Source: Patescibacteria group bacterium (GTDB taxonomy: Bacteria > Patescibacteriota > Minisyncoccia > Phycocordibacterales > SBAW01). From it: 34,991 bases of DNA. The stretch is from the NCBI GenBank assembly GCA_016176685.1, contig JACOWS010000005.1, positions 1 to 34,991 of the forward strand, read 5' to 3'. Below, piece after piece: positions 7,679 through 32,117 of this stretch. The position numbers and the translations under genes are program-made. The first letter of the stretch is position 1. Each line of letters begins with the position of its first letter. Under the pieces are notes generated by a model. It saw nothing but the letters and a program-made list of their open reading frames with translations. It had not been told where the DNA came from and ran no database searches.

Positions 7679-7703
7679 ATCATAGAGGCGTCGCCTCTAT
7701 GAT
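7679..7703. repeat. 25-nt palindrome ATCATAGAGGCG-T-CGCCTCTATGAT
   Basis: Exact reverse complement of the sequence at 32093-32117. Confidence 0.9.
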
Positions 7704-16299: not shown

Positions 16300-17952
16300 A
16301 TGCATGTGGAAGAGCGGATGCTCGGCGACTTTCTGGTAGACCGCGGACTCTTGTCGCGCCGCAGTATAGACGATGCGCTTAAGAGGGCGGGAGGCACGCC
16401 GCTCTACGAGGCACTGCAAGGGCTGGGGTTAGTAGACGAAGATGAGCTGCGCCGCGCCGCGGCACACGCCATGGGCGTCACGTTTGTGGAGTTTGCGCGG
16501 CACGAGATAGAGCAAGAGGCGCTGTTTCTCATCCCCGAGCCGCTTGCTCGCGCACGCAACATGCTGGCCTACCGGCTTGGCGAGCAGGGGCTCGAGGTCG
16601 CACTGCTCGACCTTGCCGACCTTGCGGCGCTCGAGCCACTGCACCTCTCCCACAGGGTACTGCCGCGGCTTACCTCGCGGCACTCGCTCACGCACGGGCT
16701 CTTGCATTATCAAAAATTATTGAAGGAAAAATTTGCCGCAGTCTTGGTACATAGCGGCGATGCGGTCGAGGCGCTTTTGCACCACGCGCTCCTTTCCCGC
16801 GCGCACGGGGTCCACATCGACCTTAAAACTACCGGCGCTCTGGTGCGCTACCGCATTGGCCACGCGCTCGAAGACGCGATGGAGTTGCCCGCGCACATCG
16901 GCCAAGCCCTTGCCGACAAACTTAAACTGCTCGCAAAGCTCTTGCCCGCATCGCGCGCAATGCAAGAAGGCCGATTTAAGATTGAAAAAAATGGTGAGCG
17001 ATACGCGGTGCACGTCTTTGCCGGCCCGCGGGTAGATGGCCTGCCTGTGGGCAATGCAGGCGAGCGCATTACCTTGCGCTTGGCGCGCGAGTCCGCGGGG
17101 CACGGGGGCTTTACGCTTGAATCACTTGGTTTACGCGGCAAGGCACTCGAGGATGTGTACGCCGCGCTGTTTGGCAGGCCCGGCTTGGTGGTGGTCGCGG
17201 GCCCTAAAAAATCAGGTGTGAGTACGCTGCTCTACACGCTGCTCGACCTGCTTAACGCACCTGCACGCACCGTAGCCACCGTGGAAGAAACAATCGAGCA
17301 TCGCCTGCCGCATGTGATGCAGGTAGAGATAGATTCGGCCGGCGGTGTGGACACCGCCGCCTCTCTGCGCGCGGTACTCAAGCAAGACCCCAGCGTAGTG
17401 ATGGTCGCCAACCTTCGCGATAGCAGGGTAGCCGCACTCGCGGCTTCGGCCGCATCGTGCGGCGTCATGGTTGTTGCAGGGCTTGAGGCCAACTCTGCAT
17501 CGGAGGCAGTGGAGAGGCTGCTTGGGTTGGGGGTGCCGCCGCTTACGCTTGCATCCACACTGCGCGCGGTGGTGTCTACCCGCCTGGTGGAGAAGTTGCC
17601 AGAAGGTGCCGCGCGCACACCGCTTGCCCGCGCCGACCTTGCCGTGTTTGAACCGTATGCCGACTTCGGCCGAGTGCTCGCGGCCCTTAAAGAAGAGGGG
17701 CTGGTGGAGAAGGGGTCGCAATGGAAGGATCTGGTCTTTGGTGTGGGGGCGGGGGATGGCGTAGTGGGGCTCCAGGAGGTCATGCCCATAACCGAGCCCA
17801 TAAAAGAGCTTATATTGCGGGGCGCCGGGGCAGAGGAGATTGAGCAAGTGGCAAAGACAGAGGGGATGCTTTCTATACTAGAAGACGGGCTATGTAAGGC
17901 CGCAGAAGGAATAACCAGTATCGAGGAGGTATCTCGGCTCTTTACCGAGTAA
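16300..17952 (+). CDS. PilB/GspE-type secretion ATPase homologue with degenerate nucleotide-binding motifs
   Basis: GspE-N-like region, RFKIEKNGERYAVHV, GPKKSGVSTLLYTLLD, LRAVLKQDPSVVMVANLRDSRVA; Walker A Lys replaced by Val. Confidence 0.85.
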   Translation: MHVEERMLGDFLVDRGLLSRRSIDDALKRAGGTPLYEALQGLGLVDEDELRRAAAHAMGVTFVEFARHEIEQEALFLIPEPLARARNMLAYRLGEQGLEVALLDLADLAALEPLHLSHRVLPRLTSRHSLTHGLLHYQKLLKEKFAAVLVHSGDAVEALLHHALLSRAHGVHIDLKTTGALVRYRIGHALEDAMELPAHIGQALADKLKLLAKLLPASRAMQEGRFKIEKNGERYAVHVFAGPRVDGLPVGNAGERITLRLARESAGHGGFTLESLGLRGKALEDVYAALFGRPGLVVVAGPKKSGVSTLLYTLLDLLNAPARTVATVEETIEHRLPHVMQVEIDSAGGVDTAASLRAVLKQDPSVVMVANLRDSRVAALAASAASCGVMVVAGLEANSASEAVERLLGLGVPPLTLASTLRAVVSTRLVEKLPEGAARTPLARADLAVFEPYADFGRVLAALKEEGLVEKGSQWKDLVFGVGAGDGVVGLQEVMPITEPIKELILRGAGAEEIEQVAKTEGMLSILEDGLCKAAEGITSIEEVSRLFTE

Positions 17953-18018
17953 AAATAGCAAAAATAGGCGAAATATCCTTATTTTAAGGTGTTTTTTGTA
18001 TATTTTGTGCCTATTTGC

Positions 18019-18047
18019 TTGACAAATGTCAAGATTGGGTGTATACT
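18019..18047 (+). promoter_or_regulatory. Sigma70 promoter TTGACA-17-TATACT, -35 within palindrome TTGACAAATGTCAA
   Basis: Near-consensus -35/-10 with 17-nt spacing. Confidence 0.85.
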
Positions 18048-18104
18048 AGTAACAGATACTTCAGCATAGGGTAGGTCGCAGCTCGGGGTCCCAAAGAGAG
18101 GGGC

Positions 18105-18133
18105 TTGACAAGAAAGACCGACTATGCTATACT
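18105..18133 (+). promoter_or_regulatory. Second sigma70 promoter TTGACA-17-TATACT
   Basis: Near-consensus with 17-nt spacing; GACTATGCTATA shared with 6429-6440. Confidence 0.85.
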
Positions 18134-18139
18134 AAAAAA

Positions 18140-18290
18140 AGTTAACGTCGAGGCACCCTAAAATAGTTTGAACGGAAACAGTCTTTTAGAGGAAGGTTGT
18201 GACCTAGAGCAAGCTCTATATATAGATATAGAAAAGCGGCCGGGAAACACTCTTAACCTTAAAGAGCAGTTTCTCGGCCGCTTTTCTTGT
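18140..18290 (+). ncRNA. Candidate structured small RNA or leader
   Basis: Downstream of promoter; CTAAAA/TTTTAG, AGGT-tgtg-ACCT, TAGAGCAAGCTCTA, then 18-bp hairpin GAAAAGCGGCCGGGAAAC/GTTTCTCGGCCGCTTTTC; no obvious ORF. Confidence 0.5.
18231..18290 (+). terminator. Terminator-like hairpin followed by CTTTTCTTGTT
   Basis: 18-bp stem 18231-18248 / 18269-18286 with one G-T wobble; weak U-run. Confidence 0.6.
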
Positions 18291-18486
18291 TAAGAGAAGT
18301 GCGGGAGCGAAAACAAATTAAACAATGTCGCTCTCCCGCTTCTCTCCGCAAGAGAGAACAAATAGTTAGTACATTCGTTGGAAGCAAGCATAACCACCTT
18401 GTTTCCAAAAATGTCCTCGCTACGACAGTATGTGCAGTCGGTGAGTGGGACGGAACTTTGACAGATGAATAGCAGCAAGGAGCAAA

Positions 18487-18651
18487 GTGAAAAAACTGCT
18501 CGCAAGAGCGATCACAATGTTGTTCCTCGTTGCCGGACTGACTTCACCTAGGTCGGTACGGTACGAGGGATCGCATCCCGCGCGTGTCGATGTTCTTCGC
18601 CCCGATTGGCGGGGCACTCAATGGAGGAAAAAATGTCGAAAAAAGTTGTAA
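18487..18651 (+). CDS. Small putative secreted/membrane protein (GTG start): MKKLLARAITMLFLVAGLTSPRSVRYEGSHPARVDVLRPDWRGTQWRKKCRKKL
   Basis: AAGGAG 4 nt upstream of GTG; signal-peptide-like N-terminus; not in the ORF track. Confidence 0.5.
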   Translation: MKKLLARAITMLFLVAGLTSPRSVRYEGSHPARVDVLRPDWRGTQWRKKCRKKL

Positions 18652-18749
18652 GAGAAAATTCTTGGGCCGAGGCATTTATTGCCTTGGCCGTCGGCATCGC
18701 CATCGCCATCGCCATCGCGGCGACGTTTTACCTCTCCTTCCCCCACTAA
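18633..18749 (+). CDS. Small single-TM protein MSKKVVRENSWAEAFIALAVGIAIAIAIAATFYLSFPH
   Basis: GGAGG upstream; TM helix; overlaps end of previous ORF by 19 nt. Confidence 0.55.
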   Translation: MSKKVVRENSWAEAFIALAVGIAIAIAIAATFYLSFPH

Positions 18750-18765
18750 TAAATGTGGGGGAAGC
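18737..18765 (+). repeat. Hairpin CTTCCCCCAC-taataaat-GTGGGGGAAG straddling the small ORF stop codon
   Basis: Perfect 10-bp inverted repeat. Confidence 0.8.
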
Positions 18766-18991
18766 CGGCGAGCGTGACTTGGTTGTCGCGCTCGCCAAAA
18801 GGTTTTTGAGCGAAACCTTTTCAAAAAATTCGCTCCTTTATACCCCCAACGAGCACAGTGCTGGGAAGGGGTTTGAGTAAAAAGTTAACCCGCCCGCGCC
18901 TGGGGCAGAAAATACAGGCCAAGGCAGGTAGTAGCGCACCTGCCGAAAGGAGACTCTCACTGAAGCCAAGCGGCTGAGAGAGTTTAAAGAG

Positions 18992-19246
18992 ATGTATACA
19001 CCCAAGACAATTTTGCGCGCTGCCCTCCTGTTCGAGGGCGAGCAGGCCATGGGCCTGCTCGCGGCCGAGCACGGCTGCCAGGCCCTTGCCGCGGAGATTC
19101 TCCGCGGCGAGCGGCCGGCGCAATCGCGCCGGCCGCTCATGGCGGCCGAGCAGGCCGCCCGCGTGGCGGCCCTGCGTGCCGCCCGCGCCGCCGAGAAGGC
19201 GGCGTTCGCCGCCAATTTGGTGGCGCTCAAGGCCAAGTACAATTAG
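18992..19246 (+). CDS. Orphan Ala-rich 84-aa protein, coding sequence tiled with hairpins
   Basis: Open frame MYTPKTILRAALLFEGEQAMG...; several perfect inverted repeats within the ORF. Confidence 0.6.
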   Translation: MYTPKTILRAALLFEGEQAMGLLAAEHGCQALAAEILRGERPAQSRRPLMAAEQAARVAALRAARAAEKAAFAANLVALKAKYN

Positions 19247-19337
19247 GCCCCTTGAGCGAAGAGGTTGAAAGGTCCTCTTAAAAAACTTTCACGCTACGCA
19301 CTCCGGCGGGGGAGGAGTGCAAATAAGGAGAGACGCC

Positions 19338-19427
19338 ATGTACATGGTTCTCCCAAATGGCTTGGTGGTTCCTGTGACCACCAAGCACGAGGCGGCCAAG
19401 GTCGCCTCGACCGAACGCGCTCGTTGA
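19338..19427 (+). CDS. 29-aa orphan protein MYMVLPNGLVVPVTTKHEAAKVASTERAR
   Basis: AAGGAG 10 nt upstream; three back-to-back hairpins in 90 nt. Confidence 0.45.
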   Translation: MYMVLPNGLVVPVTTKHEAAKVASTERAR

Positions 19428-19822
19428 GCGTGTTCGGGCACCCAAGCTCTCTGTGCAAAACGGCTTGGTAGTTTGTAGGTTCTTCGGGAAGGAAGAGATA
19501 CCGAAGTATGGAGGCGACAAGTGGTTACTGTCGTCGCCTCTCTTGAGCTCATCATTAAAATTAATGACGGTTTCAAGAGGGGTTGTGTAAAAAAGCAATC
19601 CCTAAAGTTCCGATTTGCTGGCCCTAACACAAGTCGCCACCCACTGTATTCGTGGGAGGTTGCGGCAACTCCGGCAAATCGATGCTTCTGTTAGTAGTGT
19701 GTGCGTAATCTCCATGACCACTCCTGGAAAGGAGCGGCTCTTGCCTGTCGATACGGAGGCAAGTCCTACGGGAGACCCACTAGCCGTGGCATTCCCGCTG
19801 CGGCAAATTCATGGAGAGCGAG

Positions 19823-20257
19823 ATGACCACCAAGCATTTCTTTTATTCGGTGGGGGCTAACACCCCGAAGTCTGGTTTGAATTACCTCACCCACTCCGGA
19901 AGAGTGTGGTGGGACGGCAGCCGTGAGGCTACCGTCAATGCGGCGCAGGCCGCACTTGCGGCCTATGATGTGGCAGGAAACTGCCACGCACGGGCTATTG
20001 AAGTTGAGGTCTCGGAAGAGATCGGGTTGATCTCACGGATCAACGTATGTGATCTCCGCTCGATGTCTCGCGACATCGAGTCGGAAGACCGCCGCGACTG
20101 GTGGGTCGGCGGCCACGAGGTCGCCGACCCGAAATGGGCCCAGGTCGACTCAGTAAGAGTCGACCACCCACAACAGGGCTACCCGTACGAGTGGGAGCTC
20201 AGAGTGGGAGGCAGGCTCGAGCCTGAACCTCCCACCCTTATTGACGGCGAGGACTAA
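19823..20257 (+). CDS. Orphan hypothetical protein (144 aa), hairpin-tiled
   Basis: MTTKHFFYSVGANTPKSGLNYLTHSGRVWWDG...; GGAG upstream; about ten local inverted repeats. Confidence 0.65.
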   Translation: MTTKHFFYSVGANTPKSGLNYLTHSGRVWWDGSREATVNAAQAALAAYDVAGNCHARAIEVEVSEEIGLISRINVCDLRSMSRDIESEDRRDWWVGGHEVADPKWAQVDSVRVDHPQQGYPYEWELRVGGRLEPEPPTLIDGED

Positions 20258-20330
20258 ACCAACCCTCGCCGTTTCGGTGATTGGAGCACCGTAAAAACTC
20301 CAAAAGAAGTTCTTCGTTCGAATTCACTTC

Positions 20331-20516
20331 GGCGGGTGCACGAGGTCCAAACCTTCCGCACCCGCCCCCTTTCAAGCGCTTTAGGCCCTAGGCCTAGAGT
20401 ATTTGAAAGGGGAACTTATTCTCCTCTTGCATGACACTTGCACACCCAGGTGTCGTGCGGGCGCGGCGGCTGTCTAGTAACTAATACGGTAATGCGTATA
20501 GCGAACGGCAGCCGCC
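20331..20516 (+). ncRNA. Candidate structured 3' RNA of the orphan island
   Basis: GGCGGGTGC/GCACCCGCC, CCCTTTCAA/TTGAAAGGG, GGCGGCTG/CAGCCGCC stems in series; no convincing ORF. Confidence 0.4.
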
Positions 20517-20667
20517 GATGCCCTCTTTATGTTTGCTGCTGATGTAGCCCCCAGGGAGCTGTGAGTGGAATCCTCTACACTTCTATACGCTTAATGTAAA
20601 TCGCCTCGCGCGTTTTTACGCTGAGCTTGTTGAAGCGCCATTCGCAGCTCCGTGGCGACTACCCGCC

Positions 20668-20702
20668 CAAAAACCGCCTCCATTTCGGGGGCGGTTTTTA
20701 CG
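20668..20702. terminator. Bidirectional terminator-like hairpin AAAAACCGCC...GGCGGTTTTT
   Basis: 10-bp stem with A/T runs. Confidence 0.85.
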
Positions 20703-20710
20703 TTGGGAGA

Positions 20711-20977
20711 TTAGCGGTAGACCTCATGGTCGCCCACGGCAAGCAATATCACTTCGCCTTTGCTTTTGTCAGTATAGGAAAACACAATGCGGTAACGATA
20801 GTTGACCGAAAAACCACGCCGACCCGCGAGAGGCCCTTTAAGTTTGTGCACATGAAGCCACTCATGATTCATTGTGTTTTTGAAGTCCTCTATTCTTTCA
20901 AATGCTTCGTGTTGAAGCGCGAGCGGAAGTTTCTTGAATTGTCGCCTAAACTGCGGGGACAAATGGACAAGCAACAT
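20711..20977 (-). CDS. RelE/YoeB-like toxin of a type II toxin-antitoxin system
   Basis: HLSPQFRRQFKKLPLALQHEAFERIEDF, LKGPLAGRRGFSVNYRYRIVFSY, VGDHEVYR. Confidence 0.85.
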   Translation of the reverse strand: MLLVHLSPQFRRQFKKLPLALQHEAFERIEDFKNTMNHEWLHVHKLKGPLAGRRGFSVNYRYRIVFSYTDKSKGEVILLAVGDHEVYR

Positions 20978-20980
20978 GAA

Positions 20981-21196
20981 TTAAAGGTCAAGTAGTTTCC
21001 GAAGGTCTCCCTTAAGAATTTTCCCTTCGGAAACTTCGCGTTCTGCACGCAGTACTGCCTCGACTGCTTCATCTTCGGCAAGTTTGTCGAGCGCTTTGCG
21101 CATGACCGCAGCGCGTGAGGAGCCGACCCCCTGTTTTACCAATGTATCGAGGCGGTCTTCATGGTCTTTGGACAACGGGACGGATATGGTGCTCAT
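20981..21196 (-). CDS. RHH-type antitoxin
   Basis: MSTISVPLSKDHEDRLDTLVKQGVGSSRAAVMRKALDKLAEDEA; immediately upstream of toxin. Confidence 0.8.
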   Translation of the reverse strand: MSTISVPLSKDHEDRLDTLVKQGVGSSRAAVMRKALDKLAEDEAVEAVLRAEREVSEGKILKGDLRKLLDL

Positions 21197-21298
21197 AAGA
21201 GTAAAAGTATGAATAATTAATATGAATTTATAGTACTCTTGCCGGTAGTGTGCGTCAAGCGGCTTTTTCGTTTCTGCGAGGATGCTATAGTAACGAGC

Positions 21299-22054
21299 AT
21301 GGCACGCAAGCGCCTCGTGGTTGGTAATTGGAAGTCCTATATAGAGTCGCCAAGCGAGGCACACGCGCTTGCTTTGGCTCTGCGCCGCAAGGCGAGAGCA
21401 CTCCCGGGGGTTGAGGTGTGGCTCGCGCCACCCTACCCGCTTTTGCCCGCGGTTGCCGAGGTGCTAGAGAGTTCTCCCATAAAAGTGGGTGCGCAAGCGC
21501 TCTCTGCAAGCCCCGGCGGCAAGCACACCGGCGAGGTCTCTGCGAACATGCTCAAACAAGTGGGCGCACAATTTGCCTTGGTGGGCCACTCGGAACGCAG
21601 GGCACAGGGCGAGGGCGACGAGCAGGTGCGCGCGCAACTTTTGCAGGCACTCCAAGCAAAACTTACGGCGGTGTTGTGTGTGGGCGAGCACGAGCGCCTG
21701 CAGGACGGCTCGCACTTTTCTTTTATTGAGCGGCAGCTTGTTGTCGCGCTTGACGCGCTCCCTCCTAAAGCAAAAGTAATTGTTGCCTACGAGCCCGTGT
21801 GGGCAATAGGGAAGAGTGCGGAAGAGGCGATGCAGCCGCAAGACCTTGAACAGATGGCGATTTTTATACGCAAAACTTTGGTCGAAACTTTGGACCGCAG
21901 CGCGGGGCTCAAGATACCTATACTCTACGGCGGCTCGGTCGAGTCCGCCAACACACACGCGCTTTTGATTGGGGGCGGCGTCAACGGTTTTTTGGTCGGG
22001 CACGCCAGCGTGGAAGCCGAACCATTTTTGGAAATTATAAAAGCATGCAAATAG
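21299..22054 (+). CDS. tpiA: Triosephosphate isomerase
   Basis: LVVGNWKSY, VGAQALS, ALVGHSERR, VAYEPVWAIG, LYGGSVES. Confidence 0.97.
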   Translation: MARKRLVVGNWKSYIESPSEAHALALALRRKARALPGVEVWLAPPYPLLPAVAEVLESSPIKVGAQALSASPGGKHTGEVSANMLKQVGAQFALVGHSERRAQGEGDEQVRAQLLQALQAKLTAVLCVGEHERLQDGSHFSFIERQLVVALDALPPKAKVIVAYEPVWAIGKSAEEAMQPQDLEQMAIFIRKTLVETLDRSAGLKIPILYGGSVESANTHALLIGGGVNGFLVGHASVEAEPFLEIIKACK

Positions 22055-29267: not shown

Positions 29268-30125
29268 ATGCAAAAGTTTTGGCGCTACCGCTCGTACTTT
29301 TTTGTCGGGTTCCTTGCACTTTTTACTTCAGCGCTATGGGTTGCGGTGTTTGCCGCAACCCCAAGCGGTGTACTCACCGTCGCGGTGCTCGACGTCGGGC
29401 AGGGCGACTCTATATATATAGAGTCGCCGACCGGGCAACAGCTCGTGATAGACGGTGGGCCGGGGAGCGCACTTTTGCAGGCACTCCCCGCCGTGATGCC
29501 TATGGGCGACCGTTCGCTTGACGCCATTGTCGAGACGCACCCCGATGCCGACCACATTAGCGGGTTTGTCGACCTCCTTGCCCGCTACACCGTAGATATA
29601 TTTATTAAGCCGGGGATAGCAAAAGATACTGCAACCGCCCGCGCGCTTGAGCGGGAAGTGGCGGATAAAAAAATCTCGACCTACCTTGCGCGCCGCGGCA
29701 TGTGGCTGGAGCTCGGCGGGGGAGCCGAGCTCCACATCCTTTCCCCGGAGCGCGATGTTTCGCGCATTACAAAAACAAACGACGGCGCGGTGGTCGCGCA
29801 CTTGGTCTATGGCAAGACCACTATGCTGTTTATGGCGGATGTGTCCAGTGCGGTGGAAAACCGCCTGGTGTTGCTTGATGGCACGGGGCTCAAGAGCGAC
29901 ATACTAAAAGTAGCCCATCACGGCTCAAAATATTCCAGCGCCAGCGCCTTTCTTTCCGCCGTTTCGCCTGCCGCCGCGGTTATTTCTGTCGGCAAAAACT
30001 CATACGGCCACCCCACAGACCAGGCGCTTTCTCGGCTTGCGGCGTATAGCGGCGAGATACTGCGTACCGACCAGGCCGGTACTATCGTATTTGTCTCGGA
30101 TGGGGAAAACTTTGTCCGAAAATAG
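29268..30125 (+). CDS. ComEC C-terminal-like metallo-beta-lactamase-fold hydrolase
   Basis: VLDVGQGDSIYIESPTGQQLVIDGG, ETHPDADHISGFVDLL, DILKVAHHGSKYSS, SVGKNSYGHPT. Confidence 0.93.
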   Translation: MQKFWRYRSYFFVGFLALFTSALWVAVFAATPSGVLTVAVLDVGQGDSIYIESPTGQQLVIDGGPGSALLQALPAVMPMGDRSLDAIVETHPDADHISGFVDLLARYTVDIFIKPGIAKDTATARALEREVADKKISTYLARRGMWLELGGGAELHILSPERDVSRITKTNDGAVVAHLVYGKTTMLFMADVSSAVENRLVLLDGTGLKSDILKVAHHGSKYSSASAFLSAVSPAAAVISVGKNSYGHPTDQALSRLAAYSGEILRTDQAGTIVFVSDGENFVRK

Positions 30126-30139
30126 TGACAGGCCAACTA

Positions 30140-30216
30140 CCCAAAAAGCAAACAAAAAAGAGAGCGCTCCGGGCCGCTAGGCCAAGTCTTACTCTCTTTT
30201 TTGTTTGCTTTTTGGG
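30140..30216. repeat. Long palindrome, family B copy 2 (inverted relative to copy 1)
   Basis: 25-bp perfect arms CCCAAAAAGCAAACAAAAAAGAGAG / CTCTCTTTTTTGTTTGCTTTTTGGG; core reverse complement matches copy 1 at 26/27. Confidence 0.95.
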
Positions 30217-30222
30217 GTGGTC

Positions 30223-30465
30223 CTAAATAACCCCCGCTGTTTTAAGTGTTTTGTAGGCGCCGCGTTTGGTAAGCGTTTTAAACCCTTTGGTAGAGAGGGT
30301 AACCACCACCGTGCGGTTGAGCTCCGGCACAAAAACACGCTTTTTTTGCATGTTGGGTTGTTTGCGGACAGAGCCGGTGGGGTTGTACTTGGTGGCGCGT
30401 ACGCGGTTGCTGTACCCGCCGCCTACCCGGGAGCCCTTTTTGGTGACTGGACAAATTTTCGCCAT
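30223..30465 (-). CDS. rpmB: 50S ribosomal protein L28
   Basis: MAKICPVTKKGSRVGGGYSNRVRATKYNPTG...RVFVPELNRTVVVTLSTKGFKTLTKRG. Confidence 0.92.
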   Translation of the reverse strand: MAKICPVTKKGSRVGGGYSNRVRATKYNPTGSVRKQPNMQKKRVFVPELNRTVVVTLSTKGFKTLTKRGAYKTLKTAGVI

Positions 30466-32092: not shown

Positions 32093-32117
32093 ATCATAGA
32101 GGCGACGCCTCTATGAT
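32093..32117. repeat. 25-nt palindrome ATCATAGAGGCG-A-CGCCTCTATGAT
   Basis: Exact reverse complement of 7679-7703. Confidence 0.9.

Follow-up and report, generated by a model that had tools for sequence, protein, structure and literature searches.

Does the dense run of hairpins inside an orphan 84-aa ORF of a Patescibacteria genome reflect selection on RNA structure acting through coding sequence, as the original prediction proposed with single-stranded DNA as the alternative, or does it have another source? The window, by which we mean the whole stretch of DNA analysed (34,991 nucleotides), is an entire contig of a 550 kb genome that is 98% complete. The contig is chromosomal, with conserved synteny with NusA, TIM, PGK and RecJ.

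Hairpins within the 84-aa ORF

Six inverted repeats had been predicted at 19038-19203, and all six were found in place (6/6; Table 1). Their description as back to back held only in part, being true of hairpins 2 and 3, with 25 nt lying between hairpins 1 and 2. The three short stems lie within a 24-nt imperfect repeat that is Ala-rich, and in the minimum-energy fold they partly take other pairing partners. The original prediction had called for comparison with dinucleotide-preserving shuffles. When this was done for the RNA from 18992 to 19260, the real fold was more stable, at -179 kcal/mol as compared with -131 +/- 5.6 for the shuffles (z -8.5, 0/200). With the ORF's own synonymous codons permuted and the protein unchanged, 0/300 and 0/200 permutations were as stable as the real sequence (minimum free energy, MFE, z -4.7 to -4.9). 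Three stems of at least 9 bp were present, against 0.2 expected under codon permutation, and eight of at least 7 bp, against 1.6 expected (0/2000 for each). An equal hairpin density in sequences with the same protein and codon usage would have refuted the original prediction, and this was not seen (0/2000). Its claim that composition cannot give three adjacent stems thus held for the number of stems. The longest stem alone is unexceptional: 13 bp was reached by 48-63 of 2000 permutations (2-3%).

The ORF had also been called an orphan, and it remained one. The 84-aa protein had no match in Pfam or PHROGs and no relative in IMG/VR viral contigs, and 41 family genomes gave weak matches at most, none of them credible; one family match that was inspected proved to be a methionine aminopeptidase. 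The ORF is 71% GC (0.74/0.52/0.87 by codon position), and chance alone leaves an ORF of this length open in 21% of shuffles. Its own translation is possible but unproven. The hairpins are real, yet they are not peculiar to this ORF.

Table 1. Features of the insertion, its leader and the 84-aa ORF, with positions in the window.
Feature	Position	Strand	Basis or remark
Insertion between T2SE/PilB-like gene (16300-17952) and TIM (21239-22054)	17953-21238		Synteny and folding z
Promoter-like site 1, TTGACA-17-TATACT	18019-18047	+	Consensus match only; similar TTGACA/TATA at same place in relatives
Promoter-like site 2, TTGACA-17-TATACT	18105-18133	+	Consensus match only
Strong leader hairpin with U-rich tail, between promoters and boxA	18230-18287	+	Several relatives have comparable hairpins
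Upstream leader domain (..GTACAT..ATGTCCTCGCTACGACAG)	18365-18427	+	By eye, no model; recurs as GGACAT..ATGTCC at other loci
boxA-like sequence TTTGACAGATGAATAG	18457-18472	+	Match to TTTGACAACTGAATAG consensus
Conserved structured leader element (models R1, R2)	18457-18597	+	Covariance models; no Rfam family
Covarying helix of leader element	18518-18575	+	24 pairs, 12 with two-sided changes
38-aa ORF, hydrophobic segment, good RBS	18633-18749	+	Codon-permutation z -1.3
84-aa ORF	18992-19246	+	Codon-permutation z -4.9; start region open, body paired
Hairpin 1, 11 bp, loop 3	19038-19062	+	Inverted-repeat check
Hairpin 2, 9-10 bp	19088-19108	+	10 bp with 1-nt loop as written; as RNA 9 bp with 3-nt loop
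Hairpin 3, 13 bp, loop 4	19109-19138	+	Inverted-repeat check
Three short stems of 84-aa ORF	19141-19159, 19165-19183, 19187-19203	+	Inverted-repeat check
29-aa ORF, good RBS	19338-19427	+	Codon-permutation z -2.3
144-aa orphan ORF (ORF list: 19811, 148 aa)	19823-20257	+	Codon-permutation z -6.05
3' motif GCGCTTTAGGCC..GGCCTAGAGTATTTGAAAGGGG	20362-20413	+	Related copies in inserts of other species
Terminator-like hairpin AAAAACCGCCTCC..GGGGGCGGTTTTT	20669-20699	+	92% complementary; structured run stops here

The insertion and its leader RNA

The 84-aa ORF lies in a 3.3-kb insertion that splits a T2SE/PilB-like gene from TIM and then PGK, which are adjacent in most relatives (synteny was compared over seven longer and 22 shorter loci). 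Insertions of their own are found at the same position in G018, G012 and G001, and gene content at this one conserved position is highly variable. The ORFs of the window's insertion are orphans in profile searches. Folding z averages about -3.3 to -3.6 in the insertion, as compared with -0.6 over the remainder of the window and -0.37 across the genomic background, which consisted of 100 kb of stretches from the same genome. Folding sets in at about 18.2 kb and lasts up to the terminator at 20.70 kb. The terminator-like hairpin probably marks the end of a transcription unit, and the balance of evidence tips slightly towards the 84-aa ORF being part of such a unit, running from about 18019 to 20700 and made up of fast-changing small genes. 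In G011, the corresponding gap of 739 nt is unfolded (z -0.15), and no leader of the kind described below was found in the G011 genome.

Inserts of different species have just short segments in common, the best being 18340-18590. A covariance model of the leader element, R1, was built from nine leader copies and found matches in 17/398 genomes of the order, spread over 10 of 179 genera. The second model, R2, matched in 18/40 family genomes and did not find the leader in the other 22; on a class-wide sample of 388 genomes it found two with the leader, both within its own order. Public records holding the leader core are Parcubacteria/Patescibacteria genomes (Adlerbacteria, Nomurabacteria, Taylorbacteria and others). 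A viral origin of the leader was rejected, there being no exact match to the core pattern among IMG/VR viral contigs. No Rfam family scored above its gathering score, and a permissive threshold gave sub-threshold chance matches only.

Across 22 aligned copies, 12 of the 24 pairs of the leader helix were changed on both sides and 95% of cells were paired. Covariation of this extent was reached in 0/500 shuffles and was far above slid controls; the alignment was itself fitted to the model, so that the count leans towards the structure. Analysis of sequence alone shows that tandem sigma70-like promoters, a U-tailed hairpin, an rRNA-type boxA and a conserved covarying helix stand at the head of the unit, and that units of this kind in 10 genera of a single Patescibacteria order have the leader in front. 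Considered by itself, the leader, an undescribed RNA, would join the class of candidate structured leader RNAs as a new member.

Several further observations concern the leader and its surroundings. One locus has a second, weaker leader copy about 950 nt downstream of the first (L098:1690-1836 and L098:2638-2797), and G028 also has several copies of the element. A short conserved sequence like CTTTAGAGGAG occurs at 18180-18190, between promoter and boxA, and at the same place in several family loci; it could be an attenuator or a ribosome-binding element. The U-tailed hairpin at 18230-18287 is likewise a possible attenuator. A RelE-like toxin gene (20711-20977, minus strand; PHROGs, 1e-5) is located after the unit's terminator and before TIM. 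Elsewhere in the window, near-identical palindromes, ATCATAGAGGCG-T/A-CGCCTCTATGAT, occupy two different intergenic regions (7679-7703 and 32093-32117) and may be a repeated binding site or terminator, and an isolated, very strong fold (30121-30240, z -9.4) lies between small ORFs upstream of an M50 peptidase gene. Perfect hairpins are in general mildly over-represented in the same genome, and long perfect palindromes of 15 and 17 bp lie in or next to predicted coding sequence elsewhere in it (L051:17367-17396 and L054:3065-3099).

Folding and cargo of leader-led operons

In the 16 loci for which both flanks were available, mean folding z fell from -0.60 upstream of the element to -2.65 over the kilobase that begins with it, and z was lower after the leader in 14 of them (p = 1.5e-4). 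Folding continues 4-5 kb beyond the leader in several loci; at L099 the first kilobase after the leader is barely folded. Coding sequence shares in this excess. The 23 operon ORFs of the genus (seven species) had a mean codon-permutation z of -2.3, against -0.53 in 105 pieces of neighbouring housekeeping genes (p = 1.8e-5), and leader-led ORFs from ten further genomes (eight genera) had a mean z of -4.1 (60 pieces) against -0.94 in 41 controls (p = 2e-12). ORFs were called by RBS and length, and test and control genes were unmatched for genus.

Over 67 pieces, z was -4.25 on the sense strand and -3.16 on the antisense strand, an excess of 6.4 kcal/mol per piece (p = 1.4e-8), and the sense-strand stabilisation was accompanied by more G-U pairs, a pattern that selection on RNA would be expected to produce. 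Start regions were more open than bodies in 28/32 ORFs (p = 4e-7), the 84-aa ORF being included in this pattern and housekeeping genes lying outside the test. Because the sense-strand excess is the larger and ORF starts are left open, the target appears to be RNA that is probably translated. The strand difference and the additional G-U pairs also disfavour the reading as single-stranded DNA, although the 84-aa ORF alone is equally folded on its sense and antisense strands.

Between homologous ORFs, shared pair positions were clearly above the null in three or four pairs and near it in the rest, and one specific conserved fold of the coding RNA was rejected on this ground. Since pair positions are clearly shared in some homologue pairs and near null in others, the best reading is that general foldedness with turnover, not one particular fold, seems to be what is maintained. 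We conclude that the RNA behind the leader, coding sequence included, is folded far beyond the needs of protein and codon usage, a result obtained by computation on the sequence. Selection on RNA structure through coding sequence, the central claim of the original prediction, is supported in the absence of probing or expression data, but across a whole operon and several genera and not for one ORF.

Homologous ORFs keep their protein sequence despite many changed codons. Leader-led units in other genera encode proteins that could be named, by profile only, as NDK (1e-29), a Csx3-like ATPase (3e-32), Csx20-like proteins and a DHH-like hydrolase (5e-35). The Csx20, Csx3 and DHH_CorA-like genes, which are type III CRISPR accessory-like, were located at L094:5703-6089, L099:3636-4067, L095:2471-3151 and L094:2951-3733. 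Such ring-nuclease-like cargo hints, speculatively, at a possible link to conditions of RNA decay.

A proposed boxA-based model, its rivals and known systems

Each of the 22 leader copies opens with a boxA-like sequence that differs from TTTGACAACTGAATAG by 1-5 mismatches, and the boxA of the window is the sole match at three or fewer mismatches in 135 kb of the same genome. The boxA consensus also precedes 16S rRNA in 5/9 rRNA loci, about 215-280 nt upstream, and is close to absent from the background; no boxA was seen in the 16S leader of the window's own genome with up to 4 mismatches allowed. Assembly of the rRNA antitermination complex in E. coli requires boxA, and boxA suffices for it; the complex renders polymerase processive, and a role as RNA chaperone in folding has been proposed for it (PMC10250234). 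Hairpin clusters are able to terminate transcription in bacteria (PMC8355165), and because of this a hairpin-saturated operon would itself need antitermination help. Profile searches placed NusB above cut-off in 12/12 genomes, while no Rho was found above the family cut-off in any of them, with weak matches of 16-51 bits present. Rho-blocking was rejected as an unlikely purpose of boxA because no canonical Rho was found in these 12 genomes. The presence of NusB together with the lack of Rho above cut-off suggests that the target is intrinsic termination, pausing or folding.

In the model that we propose, boxA in the nascent RNA would bring NusB/S10 and further Nus factors to RNA polymerase, much as happens in rRNA operons. 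So modified, the polymerase would transcribe through the hairpin clusters and aid the folding of the RNA, and the finished mRNA would consist of local duplexes in series, which would make it resistant to single-strand RNases and hence long-lived. The open start site of each ORF would permit synthesis of its small protein. The structure and the leader rest on the sequence analysis; antitermination, read-through and RNA stability are inferred, and no expression, probing or stability data support them. We favour a boxA/Nus-modified polymerase with a self-folding, nuclease-resistant mRNA as the whole explanation, by a narrow margin. In its favour are the codon-permutation results, the sense-strand bias, the open starts, the drop in folding z at the leader, the conservation and covariation of the leader, boxA in these and in rRNA leaders, NusB without Rho above cut-off, and the unfolded 739-nt gap of G011, which lacks the leader. 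Counting against it are the strand symmetry and chance openness of the 84-aa ORF, the window genome's 16S leader without boxA, the barely folded first kilobase of L099, the 22 family genomes in which the leader was not found, and controls unmatched for genus.

A bolder reading, to which we give rather less than even credence, is that these loci form an operon class within one Patescibacteria order, in which the whole mRNA would be self-folded and nuclease-resistant, a dedicated leader would recruit the boxA/Nus-modified polymerase, and the cargo would be expressed while cellular RNA is being degraded. That the cargo is needed during RNA degradation is suggested by the resemblance of the Csx20-, Csx3- and DHH-like genes to type III CRISPR accessories. 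If this is true, a bacterial chromosome spends synonymous sites on message folding, as described for some RNA viruses, and couples this to an rRNA-style leader; it would also yield an undescribed RNA family and, for a large lineage that is mostly uncultured, a directly testable connection between antitermination, the folding of mRNA and the survival of RNA. Searches with the leader could then turn up further variable small-gene units, including some that carry ring-nuclease-like genes, in places where annotation has orphan ORFs only. No such bacterial operon is described in the open-access literature that was searched (subscription papers and preprints were outside its scope), which does not rule out that one exists.

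Among the alternatives, the one that survives best, though we consider it unlikely, is that RNA is the product: the unit would be a long structured noncoding RNA like the large ornate RNAs, its ORFs incidental. In its favour, the structured leader and the 3' motif are conserved while ORFs differ between species, and the 84-aa ORF, itself an orphan, lies in GC-rich sequence and has a length that chance alone keeps open in 21% of shuffles. Against it, the same units hold recognisable proteins in other genera (NDK, Csx3-like and DHH-like), homologous ORFs conserve protein across many codon changes, and RBS regions and starts are open in most ORFs.

It is also improbable that the folds serve translation, slowing ribosomes for protein folding or for low expression, with the leader as an ordinary riboswitch-like regulator. 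Open starts with paired bodies fit this reading, and so does the leader, which in several species lies directly before the first RBS, but it leaves both the folded intergenic RNA and boxA unexplained.

A mutational process, template switching at quasi-palindromes, could perfect inverted repeats without selection on RNA. Supporting this are some excess of perfect hairpins in coding sequence elsewhere in the genome (a sample of 135 kb had eight of at least 11 bp against 0.2, some of the eight lying in this unit) and the strand-symmetric folding of the 84-aa ORF. This explanation is already disfavoured and seems unlikely: the folded run begins at the leader and stops near the terminator, start sites are spared, and the sense-strand bias and G-U pairs over 67 pieces are not given by perfected palindromes.

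Very unlikely is a role of the hairpins as DNA, in integron-like recombination or cassette-attachment sites for the exchange of small genes; the variable gene content at one conserved position would suit it, but the strong stems lie inside ORFs and not at borders, the sense strand is favoured, and a scan confined to genes of the window revealed no integrase. Composition, by which GC-rich, Ala-rich repeats would yield stems by chance, is all but excluded: the GC content, the imperfect 24-nt repeat and the ordinary length of the longest stem speak for it, but it was rejected by codon permutation, both for stem number and for MFE, and the less GC-rich neighbouring 144-aa ORF is the more extreme of the two.

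We also compared the locus with known systems. Integron cassette arrays have attC-like folded sites at cassette borders and an integrase; in the present locus the stems lie inside ORFs, and no integrase came up in the scan limited to window genes. OLE, GOLLD and ROOL are large ornate noncoding RNAs, structured transcripts on a kilobase scale; the folded RNA described here differs in being largely coding, in the weak conservation of its individual folds and in having no Rfam match. The genome-scale ordered structure (GORS) of RNA viruses is alike in its pervasive folding of coding sequence beyond composition controls (literature leads: PMC3695492, PMC7642675), and its criterion, folding beyond protein- and codon-preserving controls over long stretches, is met. 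Unlike GORS, the structure lies in a bacterial chromosomal operon and not in an RNA virus genome, and the leader core pattern has no viral-contig match. LoaP with its leader hairpin, a system of processive antitermination in Gram-positive operons, also pairs a leader RNA with a hairpin-containing operon downstream, in bacteria that rely on intrinsic termination (PMC12691694). Antitermination of the LoaP/RfaH type is characterised by a specialised NusG paralogue together with its recognition element. The EAR of eps operons is likewise a leader element upstream of a hairpin-containing operon, and it too acts in processive antitermination in Gram-positive bacteria. Our leader is a different RNA from these, and here hairpins pervade the coding sequence rather than forming a few discrete terminators. 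The rRNA boxA/Nus complex (rrnTAC) resembles the present system in sharing the boxA consensus found before 16S rRNA in related genomes, in the NusB encoded by these genomes and in the highly structured transcript that follows. It differs in that our leader, whose antitermination activity is inferred, heads small protein-coding genes and has a covarying helix of its own.
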